A stretch of 47,119 nt of DNA, taken from positions 1 through 47,119 of the forward strand of contig CATLTV010000015.1 of assembly GCA_950059285.1 (NCBI GenBank). The letters run 5' to 3'. The translations under genes were made by a program, and so were the position numbers. This DNA is from an uncultured Pseudomonadota bacterium (GTDB lineage Bacteria > Myxococcota_A > Bradymonadia > Bradymonadales > Bradymonadaceae). A model generated the notes under the pieces. It was given only the letters and a program-made list of their open reading frames with translations. It was not told the DNA's origin and made no database searches. Shown here piece after piece: positions 14,161-36,564 of this stretch; within the stretch, counting starts at the first letter, position 1, and every line of letters starts with the position of its first letter.

Positions 14161-14222
14161 TCAAAAAAAGAATGAGGGCGGCGAGCTGATTTATCAGCTC
14201 GCCGCCCTCATTCTTTTTTTGA
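14161..14222. terminator. 62-bp perfect inverted repeat with 2-nt loop
   Basis: Arms 14161-14190 and 14193-14222 pair perfectly over 30 bp around TT. The stem has GAGGGCGGCGAGC and an A7/T7 outer part. It acts after the lamin-tail gene, probably as a terminator for the plus strand. Confidence 0.85.
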
Positions 14223-15044: not shown

Positions 15045-15114
15045 CAGCAATAAACGCGAGAAGGGGCGGCCATTTGACTTGTCAAATGGCCGCCCCTTCT
15101 CGCGTTTATTGCTG
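15045..15114. terminator. 70-bp palindrome (34-bp arms, TT loop), GGGGCGGCC family
   Basis: Arms 15045-15078 and 15081-15114 pair perfectly. The core is GAGAAGGGGCGGCC. The right arm contains the stop and last two codons of the minus-strand lipoprotein (15106-15114), and the left arm carries the mirror copy CAGCAATAA right after the zinc-ribbon stop. Neither flank has a T tract, so it is not a canonical intrinsic terminator. Confidence 0.85.
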
Positions 15115-15456
15115 TTGAAGCGGTCTTAGATCACAGGTTCCTGCATTGCAGTACGCTTCAGATGGTGTGGGTGCTGCACAATCTGCGATTGCACGGCAGC
15201 GCCCTTCAAAGCGCGTCTCTCGCTCATTGTCTTTGTTTACCTCGTCGACCTCCGAGACATTCACGCTCGCTTGAGCTGAGCACACGCATGCTCTTGAGAG
15301 ATAGACAATGGTGCACTCGCTATCCTGCGCGCAGCTTTGATCGTAGTCCTCTGCTTCGGGCTGTCCAGAAGGGTCTCCTGTGAACCGTCCACAGGCAGTG
15401 CTCAATGTGAGGATGAAGATAAGAAGTGGTCCAATATGTCGTTTACAGGTAAGCAT
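15106..15456 (-). CDS. Small Cys-rich lipoprotein
   Basis: A 116-residue predicted lipoprotein. The signal peptide ends in LSTAC with Cys22, and the mature part has eight further cysteines (SCAQDSEC, ACVC, RCRAIADC, YCNAGTC), consistent with four disulfides in the periplasm or on the outer membrane. An AAGGA lies about 10 bases before the ATG. Small proteins of this cysteine pattern are common in deltaproteobacterial secretomes, without known function. Its last codons lie inside the palindrome, so the GLN-rich end (LQQQ) may be shaped by that element. Confidence 0.75.
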   Translation of the reverse strand: MLTCKRHIGPLLIFILTLSTACGRFTGDPSGQPEAEDYDQSCAQDSECTIVYLSRACVCSAQASVNVSEVDEVNKDNERETRFEGRCRAIADCAAPTPSEAYCNAGTCDLRPLQQQ

Positions 15457-15547
15457 CAGGTGAAAATCCTTGAATCGAGAGGTTGGAATGCAATACTCAT
15501 CATAATAGATGATTGTGACAGGGCCTGAAATCGTTTAAGGAGATAAG

Positions 15548-15570
15548 TTACAGCACAGTATGTGTTGTAA
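15548..15570. promoter_or_regulatory. Dyad operator upstream of rpsA
   Basis: TTACAGCACA (15548-15557), three bases, then TGTGTTGTAA (15561-15570) are inverted repeats matching at 9 of 10 positions. A TATACA (15583-15588) lies 12 bp downstream with no good -35, so the site overlaps the -35 region, as for an activator. Its CACA/TGTG inner halves recall the dyad at 2992-3009. Confidence 0.45.
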
Positions 15571-15632
15571 GAGTAGTAGCGCTATACACAATTTATCAAT
15601 CTTTATTGAGTAACACAAAGGATCACGAGATC

Positions 15633-17300
15633 ATGAGCGAACCCACCTCTTTTGATGAGCTTTATAACAGCGTTCAGAAGGCTTCTTTTGTTGAGGAAGT
15701 CTCGGATGGCTTTATCTTCTCTCTTGTAGGTTATGGAGACGATGCTCCACAACTTGTGGTGGATGCTTCCGAGTTTAATGCAGAACGCACTGTGCCTGAA
15801 GGTGAGGTTGAGGTTCTGGTTGAGCGCCCATGGGGCGGCACCTACTGGAGCGCGTCTGTGCTCAAGGCCGAAAAACTCGCCATGTACTCCATCCTTGAAG
15901 AGCTCGCCGCCGAGAAAAAGACGCTGCGCGGTGTGATTGTGGGCTCCAATCGTGGTGGATTGATCGCTGATGTTGGTGTGCGCGGCTTCATCCCCTGGAG
16001 TCAGGTTGATCTCCATCGTGTGAATGATGCGAGCCCTTACATTGGTAGGGAAGAAGAGTTCTCGGTCATGGAGTTTGACGCCGACAAGTGCGAGCTTGTG
16101 CTGAGCCGCGCATTGCTCCTCAAGAAAGAACTTCATCAGCAAACAAAACTTACGCGTGAGCGTCTGGTCAAGGGCGAGGTCTTTGATGGCGTGGTTCGCA
16201 CGATCAAACCTTATGGCGCGTTTGTTGATGTGGGTGGTGTTGAAGGTTTGCTTCATGTCACCAACATGAGCTGGGCGCGCGTGGATCAACCTGATGAGTT
16301 GTTCCGCGTGGGTGATGAGGTCAAGGTCATGGTGTTGGATTACGACATCAAAAAAGATCGCCTCTCTCTTGGTCGCAAGCAGTTGCTCAATGATCCGTGG
16401 AAGGATGTGTCAAGCAAGTTCAACGTTGGTGATGTGGTGACCGGATCGGTCGTCAGCCTCGCTGATTATGGCGCATTCGTCGAGATCGCGCCTGGTCTTG
16501 AAGGTCTTGTTCATGTGACCGAGCTTTCCTGGACTTCTCGTGTGGAACACCCGTCTCAACTTCTTGAAATTGGTCAGGAAATTGGCGTGAAAGTGTTGTC
16601 CATAGATACGGATGAGCGTCGTGTCTCCTTGAGTATCAAGCAGTTGACACCAAACCCATGGGAAGTGTTCGCCAAGAACGTCAATGAAGGCGATATCCTC
16701 TCTGGTGAGGTGCGCAATGTGACCGACTTTGGCGCGTTTATCGAGGTCGCCCCAGGTGTTGAAGGTCTTGTTCATGTGAGCAATGTGTCATGGACAGAGA
16801 AGAGCATTGATCCTGCAAAGTTCTTCAAGATTGGTGCAACTCAGGAGGTCAAGATCCTCTCCATGGATGTGGAGTCCGAGCGACTTGAGCTTGGTATCAA
16901 GCAGCTTGTGAACGACCCATGGGCAGATGTGGAGCAGGTCGCAAAGCCTGGCACCAAGGTCCCTGTGGTGATCACCAGAACTACCGAGTTTGGTGCATTT
17001 GCACAGATCAAGGAAGGCATTGAGGGCTTGATTCATATCTCCGAGTTGAGTCAGGATCGCGTTGAGAATGTGTTGAGTGTGGTGCGCGTGGGTCAGGAAG
17101 TTGATGCTCTTGTACTTAGCGTGGACAGAGGTTCACAACGTATTAGCCTCTCTCTCAAGCGTGATCAGGTCGATGAGGAGCTTGCAAGCTCGTACTCCTC
17201 TGATGATGATCTTGCGACAAGCACACTGGGCGATATTTTGCGCGAGCAACTTGGTCTTGATGCTCCTGTTGCTGCCGAAACCGTATCCGAGGAAGAGTAA
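15633..17300 (+). CDS. rpsA: 30S ribosomal protein S1
   Basis: A 555-residue RNA-binding ribosomal protein for mRNA docking. Five clear S1 OB-fold domains are seen (starting with TLRGVIVGSNRGG, then GEVFDGVVRTIKPYGAF, GDVVTGSVVSLADYGAF, GDILSGEVRNVTDFGAF and a final divergent one with TRTTEFGAF), after a degenerate first domain. GAFV/I and EGLxHVT/S repeats are typical. The acidic tail is normal for S1. ATG 15633 is chosen because AAGGA lies 10 bases upstream; a TTG 9 codons earlier is possible. The following gene starts at the very next base, so the two are probably translationally coupled. Confidence 0.93.
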   Translation: MSEPTSFDELYNSVQKASFVEEVSDGFIFSLVGYGDDAPQLVVDASEFNAERTVPEGEVEVLVERPWGGTYWSASVLKAEKLAMYSILEELAAEKKTLRGVIVGSNRGGLIADVGVRGFIPWSQVDLHRVNDASPYIGREEEFSVMEFDADKCELVLSRALLLKKELHQQTKLTRERLVKGEVFDGVVRTIKPYGAFVDVGGVEGLLHVTNMSWARVDQPDELFRVGDEVKVMVLDYDIKKDRLSLGRKQLLNDPWKDVSSKFNVGDVVTGSVVSLADYGAFVEIAPGLEGLVHVTELSWTSRVEHPSQLLEIGQEIGVKVLSIDTDERRVSLSIKQLTPNPWEVFAKNVNEGDILSGEVRNVTDFGAFIEVAPGVEGLVHVSNVSWTEKSIDPAKFFKIGATQEVKILSMDVESERLELGIKQLVNDPWADVEQVAKPGTKVPVVITRTTEFGAFAQIKEGIEGLIHISELSQDRVENVLSVVRVGQEVDALVLSVDRGSQRISLSLKRDQVDEELASSYSSDDDLATSTLGDILREQLGLDAPVAAETVSEEE

Positions 17301-19010
17301 TTGAACTCTGTATTTCATGAGCTCTGGTGGGGGACGCATCGCTTCTCCTCCAGAGCTATGTTTTTGGCCTGTGAACATGGCCATCTTGACACATCTTCAG
17401 GCGCGGTAACCTCACAAAGTAAAGAGTTTTTTCTGACTCATATCAACCACTTGTGGGGTGGTGTTCTGTTGGGTGAGGTCTATCCTACGCGACCTTCCGA
17501 GGGTTCGATAACCCGAGGTTTTGTGGTTGATTCTGCATCTTCTCTACATGCCTTGTGCGAGCTTATTACCGAGCTAAGACAGGTGCGTGAAGATGTGAAG
17601 TTTGGCCTGCATATTGAACAACCTGGTGCCTGGGATGACGCGTTGCTTGCGAACCTGTGTGAGCATCTTGACTGGGTTGAGTATGACCTCACAGAGTTGA
17701 CAGGCGATGTGCTTGAACGCACTCGCGTACTTTTTCAGGATTCCGATACACAACTTGCTGTGAGCGTGGGTCTTGACCCTGATGAAGGGGTGGAGCAACT
17801 TGAGCTGCCTCGTGCGTTACTCGCGCAGGTAAACGTGACCAGTGCGCCTGTTTTGGTGCATGTGTCTTTTGCTCGCGATGCGTACAAGCATTGTGTTGCA
17901 GGGAGTGAGCGTGCGAGCGCAAAGCTTGGTAAACTTGCACAGCAACTGGTTCAGGACACTCCTCATTTTTTGATGGTGTCAGGACGTATCAAGCACGCTG
18001 AAGATGGTCGTCGAGTGCTTGATTTCCATGGCGCTTCATTCATCGGGATGACTCGCGCAGCGCTGGCAGAACCCCAGATCTTGCGACGAGATGCCGAGCG
18101 TAAAATGAGCATCTTCTGTACAGGGTGTATGGCGTGTGTGCCTGAAGTATCCAGGGCTGTACAGGCAGTGCTTCCTCAGCGCATGTGCAATTTGCATGTG
18201 CCCTCATCATTTGATGCAAGCCTCATGAGCGGAAAGTCTCTGGCGATGATTGGCGCGAGTTATATGGCGCTCACCATGGCCGAGCAGGCAGCGTTGGCGG
18301 GTGCAACACAGGTCACGGTGTACACCATGGGTGTGACGCAAGGTGGGCTGATGCGTCTGCGAGGCAGGATTCCTGGGCAAGCCGAGAGTGCCGAGGCCGT
18401 CTTTCAGCGTCTTGAGCAGTGTCGAGCACAGCCCGTTATTCAGTGGGACAATACACCATATCAGGCACATGAACTTGTAGAGAAGATTGCCAACGAACCT
18501 GTTGATGAGGTTTTTGTAAGTCTAATGCCAGACATGGTTTTTTGTGCTGATGGTACAGGTTTGCCTGACGTTCAGCAACTTGATGCCATGCGCGTATTGC
18601 AAGAGGGGAGCACACGGCGAGCCTATCCTGATATGAGCTTTGCACATCCGATTATTGTGCTGGGCACAGACCTGTTTGCTGCTGATCTTGCGCTCTACAT
18701 TCGTATGCAAGATCACCCCGTGTGGTACGTCAGTGAGCAGGTGGCAGGAGACTCTCATGAAGCGTGGCAAGAGGTATGTGTGGCGCGCTTGAAAGATAGA
18801 GGTGTGGAGATGCTTGATCGCTTACCTTGTGAGGGGGAAACCTTGCCTGAGAGCTGGGAGAAAGGTGTGTATGTCGTGGACACACGTGGTGGTTTTCAGG
18901 TGAGCGGGCTTGAACGTGAGCTTGTGAGCACTCTGGGGCGTGATGTGACCATTGTCAGGGATACTTACGAGCCTCTCGCTTTATTGAAGATGGTTCAAGA
19001 GATTATATAA
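17301..19010 (+). CDS. Degenerate Old Yellow Enzyme/FadH-like protein (probable pseudoenzyme)
   Basis: A 569-residue protein with the layout of 2,4-dienoyl-CoA reductase-type flavoenzymes: a TIM barrel (about 1-265, ending with a VSGRI...FIGMTRAALAEPQILR strand-loop), a Cys cluster (about 275-297), then a Rossmann region (from about 315). The catalytic and cofactor motifs are eroded. The Gly-rich loops read IGASYMA and LGTDLFA instead of GxGxxG, and the Cys spacing is C-x2-C-x2-C-x16-C rather than the usual C-x2-C-x3-C-x11-C. The N-terminus lacks the OYE flavin motif. The start is a TTG at 17301 directly after the rpsA stop, with GAGGAAGAG upstream; ATG 17358 is an alternative. Co-expression with S1 is likely; role unknown. 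Confidence 0.7.
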   Translation: MNSVFHELWWGTHRFSSRAMFLACEHGHLDTSSGAVTSQSKEFFLTHINHLWGGVLLGEVYPTRPSEGSITRGFVVDSASSLHALCELITELRQVREDVKFGLHIEQPGAWDDALLANLCEHLDWVEYDLTELTGDVLERTRVLFQDSDTQLAVSVGLDPDEGVEQLELPRALLAQVNVTSAPVLVHVSFARDAYKHCVAGSERASAKLGKLAQQLVQDTPHFLMVSGRIKHAEDGRRVLDFHGASFIGMTRAALAEPQILRRDAERKMSIFCTGCMACVPEVSRAVQAVLPQRMCNLHVPSSFDASLMSGKSLAMIGASYMALTMAEQAALAGATQVTVYTMGVTQGGLMRLRGRIPGQAESAEAVFQRLEQCRAQPVIQWDNTPYQAHELVEKIANEPVDEVFVSLMPDMVFCADGTGLPDVQQLDAMRVLQEGSTRRAYPDMSFAHPIIVLGTDLFAADLALYIRMQDHPVWYVSEQVAGDSHEAWQEVCVARLKDRGVEMLDRLPCEGETLPESWEKGVYVVDTRGGFQVSGLERELVSTLGRDVTIVRDTYEPLALLKMVQEII

Positions 19011-19012
19011 CG

Positions 19013-19088
19013 GACCAAAAAGAGACGGAAAAAGGGGCGGCCATTTGACTAGTCAAATGGCCGCCCCTTTTTCCGTCTCTTTTTGGTC
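19013..19088. terminator. 76-bp perfect loopless palindrome, GGGGCGGCC family
   Basis: Arms 19013-19050 and 19051-19088 pair perfectly over 38 bp; the centre is TTTGACTAGTCAAA. It is the longest in the window. It starts 2 bp after one stop codon and reaches into the TGA of the convergent gene (19087-19089). Its inner 46 bp nearly match the core of the 15045 element, but its outer arms are unrelated. Confidence 0.88.
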
Positions 19089-19620
19089 ACTCTTCAAGGT
19101 GAATGTGAAGATCGCGGAGATATTCTTTTTCATCGTCGCTGAGGTCCTGAAGTGGCGTATCATCCTCTGCTTGATTTTCCTGCTTGGTCGTTGACGTTGC
19201 GAGTGCTTTCTTGCGTTTGGAGAGGAATGCCACGGCGACAACAGCGAGCACAAGTGCGATAAGAATCAGCACAATGAGCATCATGTTATCTTTGGGTGGA
19301 GGCTCCACAATGCGGAACTGTTCGCCGTATGTGGCCACAACCTGATTTTTGATCTCTTCCTTGTCGAGTCCTTTTTTCGCGAGATCCTGGATATCTCGAC
19401 GAACCTTCGCCGCGTTGGGAGAAGGGCACATCATGAGTGTCTTGCCAGGACAAAAAGGGCTGTAGATTTCGTTGCTTACCTCAACTGTGAGCCTGGACAC
19501 TTCACCCGTTTCTCGTGACGAGTCAGCAGGTTGCTGCGCGTGAAGTGGGGCACAGAGGAAGAGGGCCACGCTCAGGAGCATGGCGTGTAAAGTGCGACGA
19601 ATGAGACGTTGGTTGTGCAT
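19087..19620 (-). CDS. CcmH/NrfF-like cytochrome c maturation family protein
   Basis: A 177-residue membrane protein. A signal peptide ends near LHAQ, then a CcmH-like domain (about 45-100) carries SPFCPGKTLMMCPSPNA and a helical YGEQF-type end, followed by a transmembrane helix (about 113-133) and an acidic cytoplasmic tail. In classical CcmH the thiols are CxxC; here they are C-x7-C, seen in a divergent deltaproteobacterial subtype, so heme-thiol reduction is uncertain. The start at 19620 lies 5 bp after the M61 peptidase stop, so both are one operon. No other ccm genes are present. Confidence 0.7.
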   Translation of the reverse strand: MHNQRLIRRTLHAMLLSVALFLCAPLHAQQPADSSRETGEVSRLTVEVSNEIYSPFCPGKTLMMCPSPNAAKVRRDIQDLAKKGLDKEEIKNQVVATYGEQFRIVEPPPKDNMMLIVLILIALVLAVVAVAFLSKRKKALATSTTKQENQAEDDTPLQDLSDDEKEYLRDLHIHLEE

Positions 19621-19624
19621 GGCG

Positions 19625-21418
19625 CTATTGACCTGTGAGAGAGAGCCAGGAAGAGAGCAGCTCGCGTTGCTCTTGTGTAAGGTCATCAAGAGGTTTGATG
19701 GCGTAGGTGTCTGCGGGAGGAGCCGCAGTGGTAATTGTTTTCTCCAGGATCTGACCGCGTCGATTGAGGAGAACGGTGGTTGTATGGTTCGGCGCGTATT
19801 TTTGCAAGAGCGCGTTCCAATCCGCCGTCGAACTTACTCGCCAGTGATCAAACGCGATGATTTCATCGCCCGCATAAATACCTGCGTGATAGGCAGGAGA
19901 GTCTGTGGGGACAAATGTAACGCGGAGTTGACCTTGTTGATCCTTGGTTTGAACGCCTGTCCACGCCGAGGGAATGGCTTGTTTGTGGGACTTTTCAAGC
20001 TGTAGGCCGCAAGGGGCGAGGTAGTGTTGCCAGTCGATTTCCTCGGTGGATTTGATGAGTGTCTGGATTTCAGCAGAGACATCTACCCCTGTGGCCTTGA
20101 GGATCCATTCTGCGTAGCTGTCTTCCTTGTAGCCCTCTCCTGTATCGACGTAGTGTTGCCAGAGGAGTTGAAGGACATCATCCAGGGAGTGTTTGTTTTG
20201 TGTCTTTGCACGCAAGAAGAGGTCGAGCGCAAAGCATACAAGTTCGCCCTTGAGGTAGTAGGAGACGCTAGAGTTTTTGGTGTGTTCATCGGGGCGGTAA
20301 AGTTTGACCCAGGCATTAAAGCTTGATGTTTCAAGGTCATGCAAGAGTCTTCCTGGTGTTTGTTCCAGGATTTGAACTGCCTTTGCGATAAGCTCCAGGA
20401 AGTGCTCGCCTGAGATAAGCGAGGAGTTGAGCAGCCCAACATTCTCGTAGTAGCTGGTGATGCCTTCCACGGTCCAGAGGTCGCGCGTGTAGTTTTCATG
20501 TTGGTAGTCAAAGGGCCCAAGAACTTCGGGGCGGATGCGCTTCACGTTCCAGGTATGGAAGTGCTCATGAGAGACAAGACGCAGGAAGTTTAGATAGGAC
20601 TTGTTGGGGCGATGGCTCGCGTCAAACTCTGCGCCAGGAGGGCTATCATTGAAGCCCATCGAGGGGTAAAGAAGGAGTGTGGAGTTGTGGTGTTCAAGGC
20701 CACCAAATCCATCTTCGCTCAGGTGGACGATAAACGTGTAGTGTTCGTAGGGGAGTCCGCCAAAAAGGTTGGCATGTGCGAGTACGATCTTTGAGACATC
20801 GTCTTTGAGTCGCGCTTCGTTGAAGTTGCCTCTTCCCCATATGGCGATTTCATGAGGTACATCAAGCACATCGAAGTATATGGATGTGTGGCAACCTAAT
20901 TCCACGGGTGTGTCAAAGAGGATGTCGAAGTTTTCGGCGAGGTAGATTTTCTTGTCTTTATCCAGACAGGTCAGACCTGTGGCGACACGCCATTGCGCGG
21001 GGACATCGAAGGTGATTTCACTGCTGCGGTCGAGCTGCCCGTGAGGGTAGAGGAAGGTTGAGACACCATTGAGAGAGCCATGTGTGGCATCAAGGTGGTT
21101 GGTACGCACGGCAAGTTCATGAGAGAAGACCTCGTAGTTGACGTTGACTTCTGGGGTGTGCGCGGGGAAGGAGACCTTCCATGTGGCCTTGTCCTGTTGG
21201 GTGATGTGGAGGGGAGTACCATCAGGAAGAGAGGCCGATATATTTTGAATGTGACGTGCGTACTCACGAATAAGATAGCTTCCTGGGCTCCACGCGGGCA
21301 TGGAGAGAAGGATGGATGTCACGTCTTCCTGAATATCAGCAATGTGCATGGAGATATGGAAGAGGTGGCTATCGGGGTTAGGCGTGGAGACGCTGTACTG
21401 GATCGGGGATAGTGTCAT
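19625..21418 (-). CDS. M61-family glycyl aminopeptidase with PDZ domain
   Basis: A metallo-aminopeptidase of about 597 residues. The zinc motif HEHFH lies in SHEHFHTWNVKRIRP (about residues 285-300), followed by LWTVEGITSYYE with the third zinc ligand. A beta-rich N-terminal domain and a C-terminal PDZ (GVQTKDQQG...SPAYHAGIYAGDEIIAFD) complete the family layout. The open frame extends to 21532, but that stretch is not family-like. ATG 21418 or 21424 fits the family start, without a clear Shine-Dalgarno site. No obvious signal peptide with this start, so it may be cytoplasmic. The stop is 5 bp before the CcmH-like gene. Confidence 0.85.
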   Translation of the reverse strand: MTLSPIQYSVSTPNPDSHLFHISMHIADIQEDVTSILLSMPAWSPGSYLIREYARHIQNISASLPDGTPLHITQQDKATWKVSFPAHTPEVNVNYEVFSHELAVRTNHLDATHGSLNGVSTFLYPHGQLDRSSEITFDVPAQWRVATGLTCLDKDKKIYLAENFDILFDTPVELGCHTSIYFDVLDVPHEIAIWGRGNFNEARLKDDVSKIVLAHANLFGGLPYEHYTFIVHLSEDGFGGLEHHNSTLLLYPSMGFNDSPPGAEFDASHRPNKSYLNFLRLVSHEHFHTWNVKRIRPEVLGPFDYQHENYTRDLWTVEGITSYYENVGLLNSSLISGEHFLELIAKAVQILEQTPGRLLHDLETSSFNAWVKLYRPDEHTKNSSVSYYLKGELVCFALDLFLRAKTQNKHSLDDVLQLLWQHYVDTGEGYKEDSYAEWILKATGVDVSAEIQTLIKSTEEIDWQHYLAPCGLQLEKSHKQAIPSAWTGVQTKDQQGQLRVTFVPTDSPAYHAGIYAGDEIIAFDHWRVSSTADWNALLQKYAPNHTTTVLLNRRGQILEKTITTAAPPADTYAIKPLDDLTQEQRELLSSWLSLTGQ

Positions 21419-21523
21419 GTGCATAAATTGAGGTGTAAAGGTTTTAAGAAAAAAGAACAGGCAGGTGATGCTGCCTGGGCATATGATGTGTGTGGCGCAA
21501 ATTTTTTGCAAGTTCAAGCACAG

Positions 21524-21557
21524 AGAGCGCATCTTTTCTTGAGAAAAGATGCGCTCT
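21524..21557 (-). terminator. 16-bp perfect stem, 2-nt loop, terminator of the Tad-like operon
   Basis: Arms 21524-21539 and 21542-21557 pair perfectly around TG. It lies 31 bp past the stop at 21589 on the minus strand, at the end of the Tad-like run. A T4 tract lies inside the stem. Confidence 0.7.
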
Positions 21558-21588
21558 TCATCCTCTGGTTTCGAAAAAACAGATGAAC

Positions 21589-22629
21589 CTAGTCGGATGT
21601 CATCGTATCAATGATGGATCCGCCCGTGTCATTATCAGGGTAGATTGAGATAGTGACAAATTCGCCGTTGCGCTGGAATGTGAGGAGTTTGGTGTGTTCA
21701 AACTGAGGGTTTTGGCTGGCGATACGCTGGTGAAGTGTTTTGCCTGGCATGGGTAGCCAGCCATTGCGAGGCATGGCTTCACGGTAGAAGCGTGCAACAT
21801 CGTCAGGTGTGGAGGGCGCGGTGAGGATCTGTTTGACGTAAGGTTTGTCGTTGGCAACGGTGGCGAAGCGAGTCAAGCGAGCGCAGCCAATACAAGAGGG
21901 GATGCTCAGGTCAGGTGCGTTGTCGGTGAGTGTGCTTTCGGGGTCTTGAAAGCGCTCGTCCATGGTTTTTGTGACATCAAAGTCTTCATCCGACCAGGTT
22001 GCAGTGACGGTTGATTCGTTTTTGATGGGGTTCCAGTTTGCCTCAACGTAGCGGTGCATTTTGAAGAGGTTGTGGAAGTTTGAGGGGGCGTATTCTTCGT
22101 TGTCCTGATTGTAGTGAAACTGGAGGTGGTCGACATCAATGACAGCGCCATTCATGATGACACGGTCTTCATCGTGGTAGGCGACCTGTACTTCACCTGC
22201 GAGTGAGGCTGCGGCACGTTCATTGGCAGCGACCTTGAGTTTTTTTGGATCTTTGAGGAGTTCCTTGTCGAGCTGAACGCCCCATGTTTTGGAGTTTACG
22301 CCACGATCCACAAACGCGCGTTGATACTCATCGATGAGTTCATTGGGGCGTTTGGGCGAGGTGCGCGTAGAGAAGTAGATTTCAGTGCCATTGTAGTTGT
22401 AGATGCGAGGCTTTTCGTGGCCAAGGTCATCAAGTGCAGCGACAAACTTTTGTGTGGAGGTTTGGGGTGCGAGGACATCAAGGTCCACGATGTCAGCTTG
22501 TGAGTCCTGAACTTCTCCATCAGGGTTTGCGACAAGGAAGAGCGCACCGATGGCAAGGATGGTAGATCCTGCGAGCCCAAGCTTGAGGAGCGTTTTGATA
22601 TGCTTCGTTGTGGTGTTCTGATTCGACAT
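21589..22629 (-). CDS. Membrane-anchored protein of unknown function, last gene of Tad-like operon
   Basis: A 346-residue protein with one N-terminal transmembrane helix (about 18-38, GLAGSTILAIGALFLVA) and a large, probably periplasmic, part. No catalytic motif is recognised. A CIGC motif sits in DLSIPSCIGCARL (about residue 245), and a small domain near the C-terminus (DDVARFYREAMPRNGW) resembles the fold used by small periplasmic modules of the AsmA/DUF type, without certainty. The ATG at 22629 is 13 bp after the stop of the TadE-like gene, with AGGA upstream, so it is co-transcribed. It may be an assembly partner of the pilin-like proteins encoded upstream. Confidence 0.65.
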   Translation of the reverse strand: MSNQNTTTKHIKTLLKLGLAGSTILAIGALFLVANPDGEVQDSQADIVDLDVLAPQTSTQKFVAALDDLGHEKPRIYNYNGTEIYFSTRTSPKRPNELIDEYQRAFVDRGVNSKTWGVQLDKELLKDPKKLKVAANERAAASLAGEVQVAYHDEDRVIMNGAVIDVDHLQFHYNQDNEEYAPSNFHNLFKMHRYVEANWNPIKNESTVTATWSDEDFDVTKTMDERFQDPESTLTDNAPDLSIPSCIGCARLTRFATVANDKPYVKQILTAPSTPDDVARFYREAMPRNGWLPMPGKTLHQRIASQNPQFEHTKLLTFQRNGEFVTISIYPDNDTGGSIIDTMTSD

Positions 22630-22642
22630 GATGAAGCTCATC

Positions 22643-23590
22643 CTAGTAATTGGTGTCAAAGGTGTAACTTTCTCTGAAGTTCACGGCCAGGAGTGTGGAG
22701 TAGAGCTGTTGGCTCATGAGGGTCATGTGAGAGACGGTGTTGGTCTGTAAGTAATCCTGGTTGTTGGCGGCGGCGCGTGGTGCGAGCAGTGTCGTGAAGC
22801 CTGCGGAAAGTTGTGGTGCGCCAGGGAGCATGGGGTGCACCACGGTTTCCTGGTGAAAACCTTGCGCGTTGCCATATCTGAAGCCCGCAGCGAGCGCCAG
22901 ACGCGATGAGTTTGAGGTGAGCGCACGGGTATAGATGTCGCCCTCGGGGTTGTTTGTGGGGTCACCCGAGAGGAGCAGTTGATAGGACGAGGCAGACATC
23001 GTTGTGGGCAGGTTAATGCTATTTGGAAGGTCGTTGAGCGTATTGGTGTCGTTGAGTAGCTGGAACGCCGCGCGCTGCTGTGTGGGATCAAAGATATCTC
23101 CGACAGAGTCTGTGAGCGCGAGCGTATTCAGGTTATAGCGCGCATGTGCTGTGGAGATTTTGGAGTAATTATCCAGGCCAAGCGAAGAGTCGATATGGTT
23201 GTTGTTGTAGAGCCTGCCCACCATAAAGTTGGCTTCGCCCATGTGGCCGCCAGTGCCTGTGGCTTGCCAGCGTTGCTGCATGAAGTTGAGCGCGTCGGCG
23301 TTTGCTGTTTGTGTGCTGAGGTTATTGCCAGCGAGCACAGCACCAGCCGAGGCAGTGGTGTATGTTTCATCGGGTGTCTGGAAGTCGCCTGTTTGTACAG
23401 CGAGCGCATTATCCCACATTTGGGAGCTGGCACGGATTTGTGTTTCAATGCCAATATGCTGCATTTTTGAGAGCGCAAGTGTGGCAGAGAAGATCAGGAC
23501 AAACACGGGGAGCACAACGACAAATTCGGTGATGGTTGTGCCGTCTTCATCCAGGTGAAGTGTGCGAATGAAGTGAAAAGGATGTTTCAT
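22643..23590 (-). CDS. TadE-like pseudopilin
   Basis: A 315-residue protein whose N-terminus has the TadE signature: basic start, then DGTTITEFVVVLPVFVLIFSA, a type III signal-like segment with Glu at the processing region followed by a hydrophobic helix (about 20-42). The rest is an Asn/Ala/Thr-rich extracytoplasmic part with no motif. TadE proteins are minor pilins of Flp/Tad pili. Start ATG 23590 overlaps the previous stop as ATGA, showing tight translational coupling. Confidence 0.75.
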   Translation of the reverse strand: MKHPFHFIRTLHLDEDGTTITEFVVVLPVFVLIFSATLALSKMQHIGIETQIRASSQMWDNALAVQTGDFQTPDETYTTASAGAVLAGNNLSTQTANADALNFMQQRWQATGTGGHMGEANFMVGRLYNNNHIDSSLGLDNYSKISTAHARYNLNTLALTDSVGDIFDPTQQRAAFQLLNDTNTLNDLPNSINLPTTMSASSYQLLLSGDPTNNPEGDIYTRALTSNSSRLALAAGFRYGNAQGFHQETVVHPMLPGAPQLSAGFTTLLAPRAAANNQDYLQTNTVSHMTLMSQQLYSTLLAVNFRESYTFDTNY

Positions 23591-25500: not shown

Positions 25501-25508
25501 AAAAATCC

Positions 25509-26396
25509 TCATTGAGTGGGTACTTGCATTGGGATGGTGTATTCGCGCACGTAAATGCTGTAGCCCACCTTGGAGGAGTCCTCAAAGATGTAGCTGAACC
25601 AGGGGAACGCAAGGAAGTGGTTGTATGTCACGCGTGCGGTGATTTGCCCACCTCCCACGGCGCATGTGGCCATGGTGTTGGCATGTGCTGCCTTGAGTTT
25701 GTATGTGGCACGTTGTGAAAAAGGGCTCGTGTCAAGCGCATCAGCAAAGGTTTCTGGCGCAGTGTAGGGGTTTGATGGAGGGCTGATTGGTCCTGAAATT
25801 GTCACCTGATCAGAGAAGTGCGCGGCCATAATCCCCAAAAGGTTATCGAGGTCAGGATCGGTGGTGCTGACGGGGCCTCCTGCAACGGGAGCGAGCACGG
25901 CTGCGGCAGCAAGTGTCGCGCGTTTGTTGAGGTCCACGCTGGCGGCTGCGCCAATATCTGCGTTACGAGAGAGCTCGCCTTCCCAGACCCAGCAGGTTCG
26001 GCCAGCCTGATATACGCTCAGGTTTGTCAGCATACCTGCGATGTTATTGATCATGAGCTGTGATAAGCCGCCCGTCAGCAGGAGGAAGGGGGTGATCACA
26101 ATCAATGTCTCAAGCATGACCTGACCACGGTTCAAACGGACCACACGGGGTGTGCGCTCTGTTGGACGCTTAAACCAGGTGTACACACCCATGCACATCG
26201 CCCAGAAGAGTGTGCTGTACATCAGGTGTACGAATTGTGCCTGTGATGCATAAGATGTCTTGCCTAACAACAACATACGTGTCGTGGCCGTGTCAGAAAA
26301 TAACCATGAAAACACGATTCCAATCAAGCCAATGGCCAGTACATGTTTGGCCACTCCCACTACCACGCCAAGGAGACTCCATTTTTTCAACATCAT
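25509..26396 (-). CDS. TadE-like membrane protein with extra N-terminal helices
   Basis: A 295-residue protein. Two hydrophobic helices (about 8-30 and 53-70) come before a TadE-like segment, RGQVMLETLIVITPFLLLTGGL (about residues 90-115), so the pilin-type anchor is internal rather than N-terminal. The C-terminal part is Ala/Thr-rich and extracytoplasmic. Start is ATG 26396 or 26393; the longer frame to 26498 has no signal character. TATAAC on the minus strand at 26447-26442 could be its -10. First gene of the operon leading to 21589. Confidence 0.65.
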   Translation of the reverse strand: MMLKKWSLLGVVVGVAKHVLAIGLIGIVFSWLFSDTATTRMLLLGKTSYASQAQFVHLMYSTLFWAMCMGVYTWFKRPTERTPRVVRLNRGQVMLETLIVITPFLLLTGGLSQLMINNIAGMLTNLSVYQAGRTCWVWEGELSRNADIGAAASVDLNKRATLAAAAVLAPVAGGPVSTTDPDLDNLLGIMAAHFSDQVTISGPISPPSNPYTAPETFADALDTSPFSQRATYKLKAAHANTMATCAVGGGQITARVTYNHFLAFPWFSYIFEDSSKVGYSIYVREYTIPMQVPTQ

Positions 26397-26618
26397 CGTG
26401 GACCTGCCATTATTTTGTGGATTGTGATGCAAAAGTGCTCCGTTATACACATTCAATAAAACATTCGAACCAGTTGAACACACCTCATCACCAGTCAATG
26501 CGCTTCTTAATGCAGAGTACGTGCCATGTAGTATTCATGGCTCATTCTACATCCTTGATATGCTCAGGTGTGAATCTTTGTCACATTTATGCGGTATTGA
26601 TACCTCATCGTGTTACGT

Positions 26619-28112
26619 TTACTCGTAAAGAGCGTTGAATTCCTTCTCCGCAGCTTCCTGCGCCTTGGGGTCAAGTTTGGGCATATCCTTGGGGATAATT
26701 TTTGAGGGATCTTCTGCGCGTCGCTGTGAGAACTTGCTCTGGCCAATCTTGTGAAGGGCATTGTTGTTACGTGACGCTGATGCGTTGTAATTGCCCGATT
26801 TATCCACGCGTTGTGTGGTGGAGTTGCCCTGGAAGTTTGACTTGATCGCTGAAGAGTGGATGTCTTTGGCAAGCCTTGAGATTAACAGGCTGTTGCGACT
26901 GTGTTTGTTGATGAGCGCTGCATGAAGCCGATGACTTGCCTCACGTGTGGTGACATGTGTCAGTCGCAATCGCACATTGTCACAGAGCAGCCCCTCAATA
27001 GGTTGATCTGGGTTTTGTGATGCGCTCACTTGCACCTCTGTACAGACTGACATCCAGAACGAGGTGTCCTCGCGAAACGCAGGTGCGCGAAGTTGACACA
27101 CATCAACATTGTGGCTGTAAAATGCCTCTGTAATCTCCACACTGTCGATGTCCATGCTCTCACACGCCGTGAAAAAGGCATAGCGCTTGAGGCGCTCACT
27201 TTCCAGGAATCCCAGTCGAAGCTCCTCTCGCCCGTGCATTTCGGAGATCATGCGTGCAGCGATCGGTTTTTCATAGATGGGGTTGTGTGGAGAGCGAAGG
27301 AGCTGCTCGGCGAGCGCGTCGGCGGTGAATGTGTCCTCAAGCATCAACGCATGACAGCTTTTTTGTTGTGTGGCGTGTTCTGGGCGAGTGTCCATGGCGC
27401 ATGACAGAAGCGCAGCGGCTGCGCTGTCAATGTGTTTACTTGCCTGAATCAAGGTGGCTGCCCACACGCGGATCTCGTCGGTGTTATCACTGCTATACAA
27501 AGCCTTGTACCACTGATCGACCATGCGCTTTTGCCAGACACCTTCGAGCGGGTGATCCTTGAGGCACGCATGAAAGAGGCTGGGAGTTTGCTTGAGGCCA
27601 TCAAAGGCAAGCTGCCTTGTCTCCTCGCTTTGCGAGGTCATGAGTTGTTGGCAGGCATTGATTGCAAAGGTTTCGTTGGGGTCCTTCATGGCAGCCATCA
27701 GGACAGGTGTGATCTCACGGCTGCCTGCCTGCGAGATAAACCACGAGCGTACATCGTTCTCTTGCCACATCAAACCAAATACACCACCAAACGCAATCGT
27801 GGTGAGGACACTGATTGCCCCCAATGAGATGTAATGAAGTGGGGGTGTTTTGCTGTTGTTTTGTGTGGCAATCAGCGTGCAGATCGCTCCGATTGGTAGC
27901 GATGCTGCAAAGAGTAGAAGTACAGGCGTGGATTGAGAGAACCACTGCGCGGCAGCAAATGAGAGGATCAACACGCCTGCAACTACGCTGAGTGTGGCGC
28001 TGCTCAAGACAACTCGTTGGATGGGATTTGGCTCATAGGCACTTGAGAAAGTTCTTCTCCAGACCTCTTGAAGCCACCCTTTCATGTGGTTGTGAGCTGT
28101 GCTCTCTGACAT
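26619..28112 (-). CDS. Membrane protein with three N-terminal helices and HEAT-like region
   Basis: A 497-residue protein of no recognised family. Three transmembrane helices are visible (about 34-58, 60-82, 93-115). Residues about 125-330 are helical and look like HEAT/Armadillo-type repeats (ITPVLMAAMKDPNETFAINACQQLM, TRQLAFDGLKQ), and the C-terminus is polar, rich in Asn, Ser and Lys. HEAT-like parts suggest protein binding. The start ATG 28112 has GGTGA about 4 bases upstream. It lies 222 bp upstream of the Tad-like run on the same strand with no clear terminator between, so possible co-expression. Confidence 0.6.
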   Translation of the reverse strand: MSESTAHNHMKGWLQEVWRRTFSSAYEPNPIQRVVLSSATLSVVAGVLILSFAAAQWFSQSTPVLLLFAASLPIGAICTLIATQNNSKTPPLHYISLGAISVLTTIAFGGVFGLMWQENDVRSWFISQAGSREITPVLMAAMKDPNETFAINACQQLMTSQSEETRQLAFDGLKQTPSLFHACLKDHPLEGVWQKRMVDQWYKALYSSDNTDEIRVWAATLIQASKHIDSAAAALLSCAMDTRPEHATQQKSCHALMLEDTFTADALAEQLLRSPHNPIYEKPIAARMISEMHGREELRLGFLESERLKRYAFFTACESMDIDSVEITEAFYSHNVDVCQLRAPAFREDTSFWMSVCTEVQVSASQNPDQPIEGLLCDNVRLRLTHVTTREASHRLHAALINKHSRNSLLISRLAKDIHSSAIKSNFQGNSTTQRVDKSGNYNASASRNNNALHKIGQSKFSQRRAEDPSKIIPKDMPKLDPKAQEAAEKEFNALYE

Positions 28113-28492
28113 TCGATCACCAATTGACTCTAAGCGTTATGGGTGGGCCGCTGCTATATACCAAATCAAACAACCATTTAAGAGAACAGAACCACCTCAA
28201 GAACATCCACGACTGGAATGTCACGGATGTATTTGCTTCAATGACATGTGAACCAGGGTAGACGACCTGTCTAAATCTACCAGACGATCCCACTACTTGA
28301 AAAGTCTCGACCTGTTTAGAGCCTCTTAAACCTTCGATTCTTGGCTCCTTCATCGTCGACACGCTTTACATTTGGCTCTGTTCTGGGGCATAGAGCTTGG
28401 TGGCAGGTGTCATCTTTTACGATACCTTTATGTGATTGGATCGCAGTAACTGCTTTTAATCTGCGATGATACGTGAACAAGGATTGTGTCTT
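28113..28492. other. Divergent intergenic region, no clear element
   Basis: These 380 bases separate divergent genes. I see no good reading frame, no long inverted repeat and no confident promoter. A 6-bp ATGTCA/TGACAT pair around 28218-28246 is too weak to call. It must contain promoters for both flanking genes. Confidence 0.5.
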
Positions 28493-29614
28493 ATGTCCAG
28501 GAACTCATCATCAACTGTGTACTCGGAGCGTCACCTTGAAGGGAAACATACCTTGCTGACAGGTTTCCCAGGTTTCCTCTCTCAAGAACTCCTGAAACGA
28601 CTTGCGGTCGCTCAACCTGATGCCCAGTTCTCCTTGCTGATCCTTCCTGTGATGTGTGCGGTCGCCGATCGCATGATTCATGAACTCTGCCTTGATGTCC
28701 CTGAACTCAAAGGTCGACTCCACCTCATCGAAGGCGATATCTCCAGGCCCTATCTTGGCCTTGAACGCACGCGTTACAATGAGCTGACGGAGAGCGTCTC
28801 GATGGTTTGGCACCTTGCAGCGCTTTATAACCTCGCTGTCGACAAGTCCATTGCGTTTGATGTCAACCTCAAAGGAACTCGCCATGTGCTCGAGTTTTGC
28901 GCTGCGTGTACCTCCTTTGAGCGTTTGAACTACATCTCCACATGCTACGTGTCTGGCGATCGTACAGGTGTGATTCGTGAGAAAGAACTCTCCTGTGGAC
29001 AGTCCTTCAAGAACCATTATGAGTCCTCCAAGTTCTGGGCTGAGGTCGAAATTCAGCGCTACATGCAGACGCTCCCCATTACGGTCTTTCGCCCCTCCAT
29101 CGTTGTGGGTGACTCGCGTACAGGACGCACCGTCAAGTATGATGGGCCTTATTATATCTTCAAGCTCATTCACAAGATCCCCTCCTGGATGCCTCTTGTG
29201 AACATCGGCAAGGGCAATGCCTATGTGAACCTTGTCCCCGTGGATTTTGTCAGCGAAGCGATGGCTTACCTTGGGACACATCCTGATCATGCAGGTCAGG
29301 TCTTTCAACTTGCTGACCCCAACCCGATGAAGGCGCGTGATGTGTTAGAGATGGTGAGCGATCTGTTTGATCGCCCTGGCGCGCGTGGCTCCTTGCCCTC
29401 ATCCATGGTGGAGAGTGCTCTGGAATTACCCCTTGTGGAGCGCCTACTCGACTTGCCTGCGGAAGTGTTGACCTACTTTAACCATGAGGCGATGTACAAC
29501 ACCGAGCAGACAGCCAAGGCCCTGATGGAGACCTCCATTCGTGTGCCTCACCTCTCCACATACCTCGCCGTTTTGATCGATTTTTACAAGAAAAATAAAG
29601 AGCTTGGCTCCTGA
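28493..29614 (+). CDS. Extended SDR / thioester-reductase-like NAD(P)-dependent oxidoreductase
   Basis: A 373-residue Rossmann protein related to the NAD-binding-4 (fatty acyl-CoA / thioester reductase) family. The cofactor loop is TGFPGFLS (residues 23-30), catalytic Tyr176-x3-Lys180 is in HYESSK with Ser149/Thr150 upstream (NYISTC), and GDISRPYLGL matches the family's second-strand region. The probable reaction is NAD(P)H-dependent reduction of an activated acyl group or a sugar-nucleotide-type reaction; the sequence does not settle the substrate. ATG 28493 is favoured by AAGGA 9 bases upstream over an earlier in-frame ATG. Monocistronic; its 3' region can form alternative stems. Confidence 0.8.
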   Translation: MSRNSSSTVYSERHLEGKHTLLTGFPGFLSQELLKRLAVAQPDAQFSLLILPVMCAVADRMIHELCLDVPELKGRLHLIEGDISRPYLGLERTRYNELTESVSMVWHLAALYNLAVDKSIAFDVNLKGTRHVLEFCAACTSFERLNYISTCYVSGDRTGVIREKELSCGQSFKNHYESSKFWAEVEIQRYMQTLPITVFRPSIVVGDSRTGRTVKYDGPYYIFKLIHKIPSWMPLVNIGKGNAYVNLVPVDFVSEAMAYLGTHPDHAGQVFQLADPNPMKARDVLEMVSDLFDRPGARGSLPSSMVESALELPLVERLLDLPAEVLTYFNHEAMYNTEQTAKALMETSIRVPHLSTYLAVLIDFYKKNKELGS

Positions 29615-29625
29615 TTGGTGTGGTG

Positions 29626-29683
29626 TTGCCCTGTCGGAAGAGATGCTTTTTTGACAGGGCGCAGATGAGATGTTTCAGGGCAA
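29626..29683 (+). promoter_or_regulatory. Mutually exclusive stem pair (attenuator-like) after the SDR gene
   Basis: GCCCTGTC (29628-29635) can pair with GACAGGGC (29653-29660), or the overlapping TTGCCCTG (29626-29633) can pair with CAGGGCAA (29676-29683). Both are 8-bp perfect stems and cannot form together. No T tract follows either, so simple terminator function is not supported. Confidence 0.3.
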
Positions 29684-29693
29684 TGGGTGGAAG

Positions 29694-29722
29694 TTGAATA
29701 TCAATGCGCAAGCGCGTATAGT
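29694..29722 (+). promoter_or_regulatory. Sigma-70-like promoter of the first TIG lipoprotein gene
   Basis: TTGAAT (29694-29699), a 17-bp spacer, then TATAGT (29717-29722). Predicted start near 29729, giving a leader of about 135 nt to the ATG at 29863. Confidence 0.6.
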
Positions 29723-29862
29723 TTGATTCATGATCATGTGACCAGAGACGTGTGGTGCAACCATTTGTTTTTTCTGCGCATATTGATCACGAGCGCTTTA
29801 CTTATTTTGATATCTCAACTTCGTACGTACGCATATGTACGTCATACTCAAGGCCAGAGATT

Positions 29863-32800
29863 ATGATTCTCTCCTTTTTGCTCCCCTTTATGTCGGCGAT
29901 CGCGCTTCGACTCCCACGCTTTTCTCGTGCTACATTTCCCAGTTATGACAACAGGTTGATGGCATATGCTGTGCTCACATGCATGGTGTTTGTCCTCGGC
30001 TCTGGGTGTGCGTCTGGGTGTGATGATGACTCGACGCAAGGTGAGGATATGGCTGCGCTGGACATGTCTACTTATGTGGATATGCCAGATGTCTCTGTCG
30101 AGGATGCCTCGATAGATCGTCCTGATACGTCTCAAGATATGCGTCGTGACATGGGGGATATTGTGGTCGTGGATGATATGCCCACGGTACAGCCTGACCC
30201 TGACATGTCGACTTCTCCCATTGATCTTGGTGCCTTTGATTTTGGTGCGCCTGAGGAAGATCAAGGGTTGCTTCCCTTGACCTTTGCGCAGGTGACGCCT
30301 TCACGAGGACCTGTGGATGGCGGCACTCCATTTGTCATTGATGGTACTGGGTTTACGGCCAATACGGTCGTCTTTTTTGGTTCGCAACAGGCATCCGTGG
30401 AGCTTGTGAGCGGTGTGCTTGTCGGCGAGACACCTGTGGCTCAAGGTCCAGGTCCTGTCACTATTCGCCTGATTGATCCTGATCAGGGGGATGTGATTCA
30501 GGAAGACGCTTTTACCTACACACCAACCTTTACGCTCAGTGCGGTGTCTCCCTCCAGAGTCCCTGTCGCAGGCCTCATCGAAGTAGAGGTGCAGGGCAGG
30601 GGATTTGACGCAGAGACGCGTGTCTCGTTTGGTTCGCACACGGCGCTCTCTCATGAACTTGTAGATGATACACTTCTTCGCGTGATTGCGCCCCCCCATG
30701 CCGAAGGGAGTGTTGACGTGCGAGTGAGCAACCTTGATGCAACCCGTGTGCTTGGTGATGCTGTAACGTATTATACACCCACACAGATTCATGATGTGAA
30801 GCCTGGATCTGGACCGCTTCAGGGCGGACAGGTGGTTGAGGTTTCTGGTGATGGTTTTGAACCAGGGATGGAGTTTCGTTTTGGTTCTCAGCTCGCGATC
30901 GTAGAATATGTCAAGGTACAGCAAGGTGATGATGTGGCGGCGGTGCGTACACCTGCTGTTGGCTCGGGCGGTCTGGTTCACGTCTCGGCGTTGACGCCTT
31001 CGGGTCAGGCAGCGCTCAAAACCAACGCGTATTTTTATGCTGAAGACAGCTCTGTGTTGGATATTGTGCAGATCGATCCTGCCAGAGGACCTGCCTCGGG
31101 TGGGCAATCTGTGCGCCTGATCGGGACTGGCTTTACACATATGCCTCCTGTGACTGTCTCGTTTGGTGGTAATAACGCCACGGTGTTGAAGCAGCAAGAG
31201 GGGTATCTTTTGGTGTCCACGCCATCTTCCGCTACCCTGGGTTCTGCCGATGTGCTGATTGATGGCACGCTTGTGGGTTCGTATGAGTATCTGATGGACC
31301 TTCAGGTGAATGCAGTCGCACCCTCGGAGGTCAGCGTATCTGGTGGTGAGGTTGTGACCGTGTCTGGAACAGGTTTTGACGCCAACACCTCGGTGTTTGT
31401 CGGCGGTGTTGAAGCAACCTCCGTGACCGTGCTCTCTGACTCCGAACTTGAGGTCGTAACTCCTCCTTATCCTGCGGGGGCGGTAGACATCAAGGTCGTA
31501 CGAGATGGTCTTGAAGATACGCTTGAAGATTGTTTGACGTATGTTGAAAACATTGAAATCTATGGGTTTGATCCTGTGCGAGGAAGTATCGCGGGCGGAA
31601 CATATGTGACCTTCCGTGGACGAGCGCTTGACCAGATCAAGGATGTGAGCTTTGGTAATCAGATTGTTCAGGAGCTGATTTACCTTGATTCACAGACGCT
31701 TGCCTTGAAAACGCCTGCGGCACTTCTTCCTGGTTCTGTGCCTGTCTCGTTTACCACGCTTGCTGGCAATGTCATTCATGCCAGTCAGGAGTATTTGTAC
31801 TTTAATCCTGGCGCACGTTTTGGTGGTGCCTGGGGAAGCTCCATTCAGGGCGCTGTCAATGTGACTGTCTACTCGCAAGGTGGTGGTTCGATTGAGAACG
31901 CTTTTGTGATGCTGTCTTCTCGTGCAGATACACAGTATCAAGGCTTTACTGATAGCAACGGTATGATCACGCTGTCTGGCCCCGAGGTCTTTGGTGAGCA
32001 GAGTGTGACGGCCATTGCGGCGGGGGATTCTTCTGCGACTGTACAGCGTGTAGATGCCGAAAATATCACGATATTTTTGTCGCCTCCGCCAAACCCTGGC
32101 AATCCTCCCGGAGGACCATTGCCCGCCACATTTCGGGGGCAACTCACAGGTTTGAACAAGCTTGCTGAACCAGGTCCATCGCAGTTTGCCATGGCGATGG
32201 TGTTAACCACGCAGCTCACGCCTGGCACGCCAAACCCAAGCCCTGGCTCGCAAAATACACTACTCGCTGATGGTGAATACATCATCAATACTCGCCTTGG
32301 TGACCTTGCGTTGATCGCTCTCGGTGGACTCTATGATAACAACACACAGACCTTTACTCCGCTGCGTATGGGCGTTGTGCGATACCTCTTTGCCTCAGAA
32401 GGCATGGTCTACAATGACGTGGATATTGACCTCGATATCGTGCTTGACCAGACGCTCTCCATCAAGATGAACAACACGCCATCGTATCCCACGGGGCCAT
32501 CAGGAAAGCAGGTCAAGACATGGATGGACTTCGGGTTTGAAGGTGTCTTTGGTGGGCTGCCTGTTGCGCGTGGCGATGACTCTGCCAGCTTGTTGCAAAT
32601 CAACAGCTTGCCAGAACTTGTCGACCAACTCTCTGATGTGGACCTGTTTATCGAGGCAAGCACAACCACGGGTGGAAATGCGCCCTATAGCGTGGGGCTC
32701 TTGCGTGGTGTGACACAGCTAAATCAAATCCTCAATGTGGATATGCTTGATGTGCCGATCATGACCTCTCCCTCCGAAGGTGCGCGGCCCCAGGATAATT

Positions 32801-33111
32801 TAATCACCTTCTCGTACAACTCGCCCGACAAGCCTGACCTTTATTATGTGCGTGTTCAGACCTTGATGCAGGAGACGCGCTGGGAGGGGTTCCTTCCTGG
32901 TGATGCGACAAGTCTAAGTCTGCCCGACTTTCCTGACTTCTCCTCTCTTCCTCCTGAACTCAGGCCGTTTCCTTACAGCAATGAACTTCTGATGATTGCG
33001 ATCATTGCGATTAAACAACCTGGCCTTGATTTTAACCAGTTTGATTACACCTCGCTGAATCAAGAGCTGTGGACCGCATATTCTGTCTCTGTGCATACCA
33101 TTACGCTGTGA
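29863..33111 (+). CDS. Large lipoprotein with six TIG/IPT domains (paralog A)
   Basis: About 1082 residues. The N-terminal hydrophobic segment ends in a lipobox-like LGSGC (about residue 49), followed by an Asp/Met-rich linker (DMAALDM, DMRRDMGD). Six TIG/IPT immunoglobulin-like domains cover about 139-646; each starts with a V-x-P-S-x-G-P-x-x-GG-type turn and has GxGF and FG strands. A carboxypeptidase-regulatory-like beta domain (about 646-741, RFGGA...AFVMLSSRADTQYQGF) and a long C-terminal region follow. This is an adhesin-type or surface scaffold layout; no enzyme is seen. The start is uncertain: ATG 29863 has AAGG upstream, ATG 29959 gives a more normal signal length. It is a tandem paralog of the next gene. 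Confidence 0.82.
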   Translation: MILSFLLPFMSAIALRLPRFSRATFPSYDNRLMAYAVLTCMVFVLGSGCASGCDDDSTQGEDMAALDMSTYVDMPDVSVEDASIDRPDTSQDMRRDMGDIVVVDDMPTVQPDPDMSTSPIDLGAFDFGAPEEDQGLLPLTFAQVTPSRGPVDGGTPFVIDGTGFTANTVVFFGSQQASVELVSGVLVGETPVAQGPGPVTIRLIDPDQGDVIQEDAFTYTPTFTLSAVSPSRVPVAGLIEVEVQGRGFDAETRVSFGSHTALSHELVDDTLLRVIAPPHAEGSVDVRVSNLDATRVLGDAVTYYTPTQIHDVKPGSGPLQGGQVVEVSGDGFEPGMEFRFGSQLAIVEYVKVQQGDDVAAVRTPAVGSGGLVHVSALTPSGQAALKTNAYFYAEDSSVLDIVQIDPARGPASGGQSVRLIGTGFTHMPPVTVSFGGNNATVLKQQEGYLLVSTPSSATLGSADVLIDGTLVGSYEYLMDLQVNAVAPSEVSVSGGEVVTVSGTGFDANTSVFVGGVEATSVTVLSDSELEVVTPPYPAGAVDIKVVRDGLEDTLEDCLTYVENIEIYGFDPVRGSIAGGTYVTFRGRALDQIKDVSFGNQIVQELIYLDSQTLALKTPAALLPGSVPVSFTTLAGNVIHASQEYLYFNPGARFGGAWGSSIQGAVNVTVYSQGGGSIENAFVMLSSRADTQYQGFTDSNGMITLSGPEVFGEQSVTAIAAGDSSATVQRVDAENITIFLSPPPNPGNPPGGPLPATFRGQLTGLNKLAEPGPSQFAMAMVLTTQLTPGTPNPSPGSQNTLLADGEYIINTRLGDLALIALGGLYDNNTQTFTPLRMGVVRYLFASEGMVYNDVDIDLDIVLDQTLSIKMNNTPSYPTGPSGKQVKTWMDFGFEGVFGGLPVARGDDSASLLQINSLPELVDQLSDVDLFIEASTTTGGNAPYSVGLLRGVTQLNQILNVDMLDVPIMTSPSEGARPQDNLITFSYNSPDKPDLYYVRVQTLMQETRWEGFLPGDATSLSLPDFPDFSSLPPELRPFPYSNELLMIAIIAIKQPGLDFNQFDYTSLNQELWTAYSVSVHTITL

Positions 33112-33177
33112 AAATGAGGCCGAGAAGGGGCGGCCTGTTGCTGGCGCAACAGGCCGCCCCTTCTCGGCCTCATTTTC
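33110..33177. terminator. 68-bp palindrome between the two TIG paralogs, GGGGCGGCC family
   Basis: Arms 33110-33141 and 33146-33177 pair perfectly over 32 bp around TGGC. The core is CGAGAAGGGGCGGCC. It begins inside the stop codon (33109-33111) and leaves only 31 bp before the next ATG. Confidence 0.85.
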
Positions 33178-36476: not shown

Positions 36477-36480
36477 TGTA

Positions 36481-36543: not shown

Positions 36544-36564
36544 ACGTACCTGTAGGTTCAACGA

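Follow-up and report, generated by a model that had tools for sequence, protein, structure and literature searches.

Long perfect hairpins at the 3' ends of genes in a Bradymonadaceae genome: probable bidirectional terminators whose arms are probably made palindromic by DNA fold-back synthesis

Intrinsic transcription terminators, including those that act in both directions, lie 3' of genes and consist of a G/C-rich stem with A-rich 5' and U-rich 3' sides. Hairpins that resemble them in all these respects are described here from a stretch of 47,119 nucleotides (contig CATLTV010000015.1 of assembly GCA_950059285.1, referred to below as the window) belonging to an uncultured bacterium of the family Bradymonadaceae, and from the rest of the host genome. 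They differ from ordinary terminators in that the host stems are perfect over 24-42 bp, with A-tract and U-tract as exact complements, whereas 150 kb of E. coli K-12 held no perfect hairpin longer than 15 bp. Perfect arms made in one event, homogenisation of the arms and inversion of the spacer are likewise features of template switching at quasipalindromes (PMC7202029, PMC8604942, PMC8794818), which is known as a rare event at single loci and would here have to work at hundreds of terminators within a single genome. Nematomorph mitochondria have also been reported to contain numerous long inverted repeats that are perfect and have a different sequence in each case (PMC6649704); those repeats are found within coding sequence and extend up to 284 bp, whereas the host hairpins avoid coding sequence and sit at 3' ends. 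Finally, the stem-loop families of the repetitive extragenic palindromic (REP) and miniature inverted-repeat transposable element (MITE) types (surveyed in PMC2267715) are likewise dispersed, intergenic and in some cases copied between loci, but the host hairpins, unlike them, share inner cores only and have locus-specific outer arms. The hairpins would be a novel and extreme form of two familiar phenomena, the intrinsic terminator and the correction of arms by template switching, and a search of mainly the open-access literature found no report of a bacterium that uses long perfect palindromes as terminators genome-wide.

An initial annotation of the window, made from its letters alone, had pointed to three elements with a common core, two of which also had a common inner sequence, and had stated that their outer arms are unrelated between elements and yet match perfectly within each. 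An inverted-repeat scan recovered the same three elements with all of these properties:

15045..15114: perfect hairpin with 34 bp arms, loop TT, core GAAGGGGCGGCC and inner CATTTGAC, beginning 4 nt past the stop codon of a + strand CxxC-domain gene (end 15041)
19013..19088: perfect palindrome with 38 bp arms, no loop, core AAAGGGGCGGCC and inner CATTTGAC, occupying all of the space between two genes that converge, with ends at 19010 (+) and 19087 (-)
33110..33177: perfect hairpin with 32 bp arms, loop TGGC and core GAAGGGGCGGCC, its left arm starting within the TGA stop codon of a + strand gene ending at 33111

The left arm of each of the three has the core GGGGCGGCC and the right arm the complement, so that the three account for six of the seven exact copies in the window, where 0.29 would be expected; CATTTGAC is the inner sequence common to the first two. 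Outside these parts the arms are unrelated from one element to the next and 100% complementary inside each. The predicted RNA folds reach -64.8, -68.3 and -69.4 kcal/mol, respectively (z of -14 to -16), and the folding energies of the window hairpins range from -57 to -69 kcal/mol, which is the stable G/C-rich stem expected of an intrinsic terminator. Dinucleotide-shuffled sequence yielded no perfect hairpin of 14 bp or more, and a search of the window against Rfam gave no match.

The host is a relative of predatory bacteria; it is represented by a draft of 6.65 Mb in 441 contigs, the sole genome of its genus in the collection, and the census described here covers 2.01 Mb of it. This sample contains 262 perfect hairpins with stems of 24-42 bp, or about 130 per Mb, and their stem lengths form a broad peak at 30-37 bp, with a mode of 34 and no stem above 42 bp. 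Most of the long hairpins have loops of 0, 2 or 3 nt, unlike the perfect inverted repeats of a bacterial survey, which prefer a spacer of 4 nt (PMC13155455). GGGGCGGCC is the commonest of many cores and is carried by about 30 of the 262 long hairpins (59 core matches, two per hairpin). Outside perfect hairpins of at least 14 bp there are 23 further copies (5.3 expected), which by listed context comprise 11 in imperfect or long-loop hairpins, three at contig ends that cut a hairpin and nine, apparently unpaired, in coding sequence. The remark of the initial annotation that no unpaired core was noticed in coding sequence therefore apparently does not extend to the genome, although single copies are indeed not abundant. 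Contigs C6, C17 and C38 (L033:1, L094:1 and L152:1) begin inside hairpins of the host type; such starts suggest that the assembly breaks at palindromes, and the census is therefore probably an undercount.

The position of the hairpins was determined relative to genes called by simple codon-usage prediction. The 225 hairpins at convergent or tandem junctions lie a median of 12 nt past the stop codon, and 88% of them fall between -20 and +50 nt. Compared with the number of junctions of each kind, there are 95 hairpins for 182 convergent, 130 for 785 tandem and 15 for 189 divergent junctions, so that the hairpins stand, as terminators should, just 3' of stop codons and mostly at convergent ends or the ends of transcription units. 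Many convergent gaps measure 70-100 nt, the size of one hairpin. Three long perfect hairpins were found inside predicted reading frames (L029:13563-13615, L083:9922-9993 and L095:17881-17928), and are possibly wrong gene calls or recent insertions.

The left arm begins at the loop with a T-rich part, which gives way to a G-rich part at positions 9-15 and to an A-rich one from there to the outer end, an order that gives the 3' arm of the RNA a C-rich part followed by a U-rich one. The outer left arms contain about 50% A and 9% T, whereas the first 100 nt past hairpin-free stop codons contain 25-28% A and 27-29% T. Standard terminators are found at 5.6% of the hairpin-free gene ends, versus 14% in relatives. 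The comparison of orthologous sites that the initial annotation had called for could be made with other genera only, and it revealed ordinary terminators at some of the same gene ends, for example after the CcrM-like gene in genome G003, behind the orthologue of the gene before the 14161 hairpin in G007 and G006, and behind the orthologue of the L146 gene in G006; at other orthologous gene ends no terminator was evident in relatives. Taken together, the gene-end position, the composition, the small number of other terminators and the terminators of the relatives indicate that the hairpins are most likely the intrinsic terminators of the host lineage, symmetrical enough to serve both directions, and on these grounds a terminator function can be predicted with considerable confidence.

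A second question is how the arms came to match so closely. When 338 hairpins were scored with mismatches allowed and all mismatches penalised alike, only 40 mismatches were counted in 10,312 pairs (about 0.4%). Eleven of these were G-U and 15 were A-C; read in the mRNA sense at tandem genes, there was one G-U against eight A-C (p 0.04). Since RNA pairing as the sole force should tolerate G-U, the lack of any G-U excess points to copying at the level of DNA. Complementarity just outside the stem is about 0.25, which equals chance, and the edge is abrupt; by mismatch counts and edges alike, the arms are more perfect than selection for pairing alone predicts. Further support was provided by the loops. 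Inversion of the spacer is a by-product of template switching between arms (PMC8604942), and inverted spacers were found in the pairs agtc/gact, gaaaa/ttttc and gca/tgc, the first of them in two adjacent hairpins (L021:3632 and 3704) that have a common 15 bp core and entirely different outer arms. The loop types also occur in both orientations: 58 of the 66 loops with three bases have the form C(GNA)G or the complementary form C(TNC)G, in a ratio of 31 to 27 (23/18, 6/6 and 2/3). GNA loops closed by C-G are described as exceptionally stable DNA mini-hairpins (Yoshizawa 1997, as cited in PMC6479982).

These observations lend partial support to the proposal of the initial annotation that one flank was copied onto the other side. 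Sharp edges, the lack of a wobble preference, both loop orientations and the small number of unpaired cores favour copying of DNA from arm to arm, but a plain copy of the flank does not agree with outer left arms that are poor in T and biased towards purines next to unbiased post-stop DNA. Such arms are unlikely to be random copies of a flank and suggest a terminator-like constraint; either selection filters the copied flanks, or extension starts from the A-tract and U-tract of an older terminator. In a search for arms that are coding and might hence be ancestral, nineteen hairpins extended at least 6 nt into a gene, by short overlaps, and no convergent one did so on both sides. Overall, homogenisation of the arms at the DNA level appears probable.

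Copying also took place between loci. Words of at least 15 nt are shared by 60 pairs of hairpins, against one in a null that keeps the positional composition, and such sharing is about 24 times as frequent for hairpins that lie within 5 kb of each other (5/135, Fisher p 4e-6). The hairpins L104:4524 and 8571, which are 4 kb apart, have a common 34-bp arm at unrelated convergent junctions and are distinguished by a single pair, G-C in one and A-T in the other, close to the outer end. Because the long shared words lie far above the null and are in excess at neighbouring loci, it follows that cores, and in some cases entire hairpins, have been copied from one locus to another, often a nearby one, in keeping with the idea of the initial annotation that a core hairpin may land at a gene end. 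Shared words are otherwise short for most of the 262 hairpins, the longest common word averaging about 6 nt. A separate five-copy family has the inner sequence CAGTGATGCGA (TAGTGATGCGA in one copy) and lies at L089:13763-13817, 16277-16353 and 16916-16984 and at L157:3303-3357 and 5646-5720. It thus forms two genome clusters, with arms of 25-36 bp, the loop gaaaa or ttttc and no G-rich terminator core, and its outer arms carry substitutions and indels that are mirrored in both arms.

Among the genomes surveyed, hairpins in such numbers are restricted to one lineage. No perfect hairpin longer than 17 bp was found in 396 kb from thirteen genomes of the same family. A covariance model of the hairpin gave at least 150 matches in the host genome (150 of 150 scored candidates) and at most five per genome among the best candidates scored from the other 56 genomes of the class. 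When the best candidates of each of 379 genomes of the phylum were scored, only the host was enriched and strong matches appeared in only two others; the model favours the base composition of the host hairpins, so that very different hairpins elsewhere could escape it. Perfect hairpins on such a scale were seen in none of the 378 surveyed relatives, the host standing alone. An exact search for the core returned three sphingomonad matches among genome contigs, which is about the chance level, with no long perfect hairpins around them. A search of plasmid records gave no match; in viral contigs with paired GGGGCGGCC or GGGGCGA, perfect stems measured at most 22 bp.

The window contains other hairpins, most of them of the same kind:

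4641..4712: perfect palindrome with 36 bp arms, located where an HtrA-like and a Hel308-like gene converge
11860..11921: perfect palindrome with 31 bp arms and no loop, 14 nt past the stop codon of the CcrM-like methyltransferase gene
14161..14222: perfect hairpin with 30 bp arms and loop TT, 20 nt past the stop codon at 14141
36406..36476: perfect hairpin of like kind with a different core, 34 bp arms and loop TCC (the complement of a GNA triloop), 15 nt past the stop codon at 36391
36477..36560: imperfect hairpin adjoining the preceding one, in which GGGGCGGCC stands unpaired at 36494 and which has homopolymer runs of 14 C and 7 T
41296..41335: shorter perfect hairpin with 19 bp arms, downstream of the mutS gene

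As the hairpins at 4641, 11860, 14161 and 36406 have other cores, the core is not the essence of the system. The large proteins encoded in tandem at 29752-33111 and 33209-36391 both have choice-of-anchor Z repeat domains, and each is followed by a perfect hairpin of its own, unrelated to the other; genes for both MutS2 (39-2708) and MutS (38382-41261) lie inside the window.

We consider it rather likely that the hairpins are bidirectional intrinsic terminators at gene 3' ends which, in the host lineage only, were driven to near-perfect palindromy of about 33 bp by DNA fold-back synthesis. The starting point would be an ordinary terminator hairpin with a G-rich stem at a gene end, of the kind that relatives have at some orthologous ends. 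As the DNA is replicated, the nascent strand would fold back at this hairpin, so that one arm templates the other and corrects or extends it; template switching at quasipalindromes, the process concerned, is known in yeast too. It turns imperfect repeats into perfect ones in E. coli (PMC7202029) and is argued to have generated and preserved RNA hairpins over evolutionary time (PMC8794818). The products would then be retained where a strong terminator is tolerated or useful, at convergent ends and the ends of transcription units, where the hairpins are in fact distributed. Inner cores, and sometimes whole hairpins, which are related by descent, would have been copied to other, often nearby, hairpins, giving rise to shared cores with unrelated outer arms. 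The limit of the stem near 42 bp may reflect an instability of longer palindromes. More tentatively, the lineage could have an unusually active fold-back copying, due to a specific polymerase, nuclease or repair state, which rewrites its terminators so that arms evolve as a unit and cores spread.

Several points weigh against this account. A simple rule of stem plus T-run is satisfied by only 43% of the gene ends with a hairpin (stem of at least 14 bp), and the U-tracts of the hairpins at 15045 and 33110 are weak. The mismatches available for the wobble test are few, and strong selection on both strands could also hold A-T and G-C pairs perfect. Homogenisation is deduced from patterns within one genome of its genus. 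One-sided inserts were found in only two hairpins in 2 Mb (L171:1535-1626 and L036:15512-15573). The loss of rho, sbcD, xseA, RNase HII or mutS was rejected as a cause, since all are present in the genome. The first of the two inserts consists of 25 nt starting with a core-like GGGGCAGCC, between an outer arm of 16 bp and an inner stem of 17 bp, and is perhaps the trace of a switch event.

One alternative is that selection for long perfect RNA stems, serving termination or protection of the mRNA 3' end, built the arms by point mutations and compensatory mutations. The 3'-end location and the terminator-like composition would fit, and so would the exchanges of A-T for G-C pairs by which members of one repeat family differ. 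Such selection leaves unexplained why G-U is in no excess over A-C, and even rarer in the mRNA sense at tandem genes, why the stem edges are abrupt, and why the differences within a family include indels and blocks that recur as mirror images in the two arms; moreover, short stems suffice for relatives that have rho and ordinary terminators. We therefore regard pure selection as unlikely. A mobile hairpin of the REP or MITE kind, whose core inserts at gene ends and acquires its outer arms upon insertion, would account for cores shared by descent, for whole-hairpin copies at unrelated junctions and for the enrichment of nearby pairs. It is nevertheless improbable, because constant termini are lacking, only a few pairs have related outer arms, shared words are mostly short across the 262 hairpins, and the position is tied to stop codons, with terminators at the same gene ends in some relatives.

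The two other explanations have far less in their favour. Fold-back reads in the library or the assembly could produce false palindromes, and both the fragmentation of the 441-contig draft and the contigs that start inside hairpins (L033, L094 and L152) invite the suspicion; an artefact would hardly be locked to gene ends and nearly absent from coding sequence, nor show a base composition that depends on position and loops of specific types, and other draft genomes of the family show none, which makes it very improbable. It is just as hard to believe that GGGGCGGCC is a recognition word for binding or uptake, held in paired terminator copies as in Neisseria or Haemophilus. It is indeed the commonest word and occurs in inverted pairs at gene ends, but most long hairpins lack it, and about nine single coding copies in 2 Mb, with 5.3 expected outside hairpins, set the host apart from uptake-signal systems, as the initial annotation had maintained.

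How RNA stems stay paired while their sequence changes is an old question, for which template switching has been proposed from scattered cases. At 130 hairpins per Mb the full 6.65 Mb would contain about 860, and the host probably has several hundred, each different and nearly all at gene ends. The genome would then be a natural experiment on the block copying of arms. It also raises the question of how a cell with an SbcD homologue tolerates palindromes of 60-85 bp, and of what raised the rate in this lineage.

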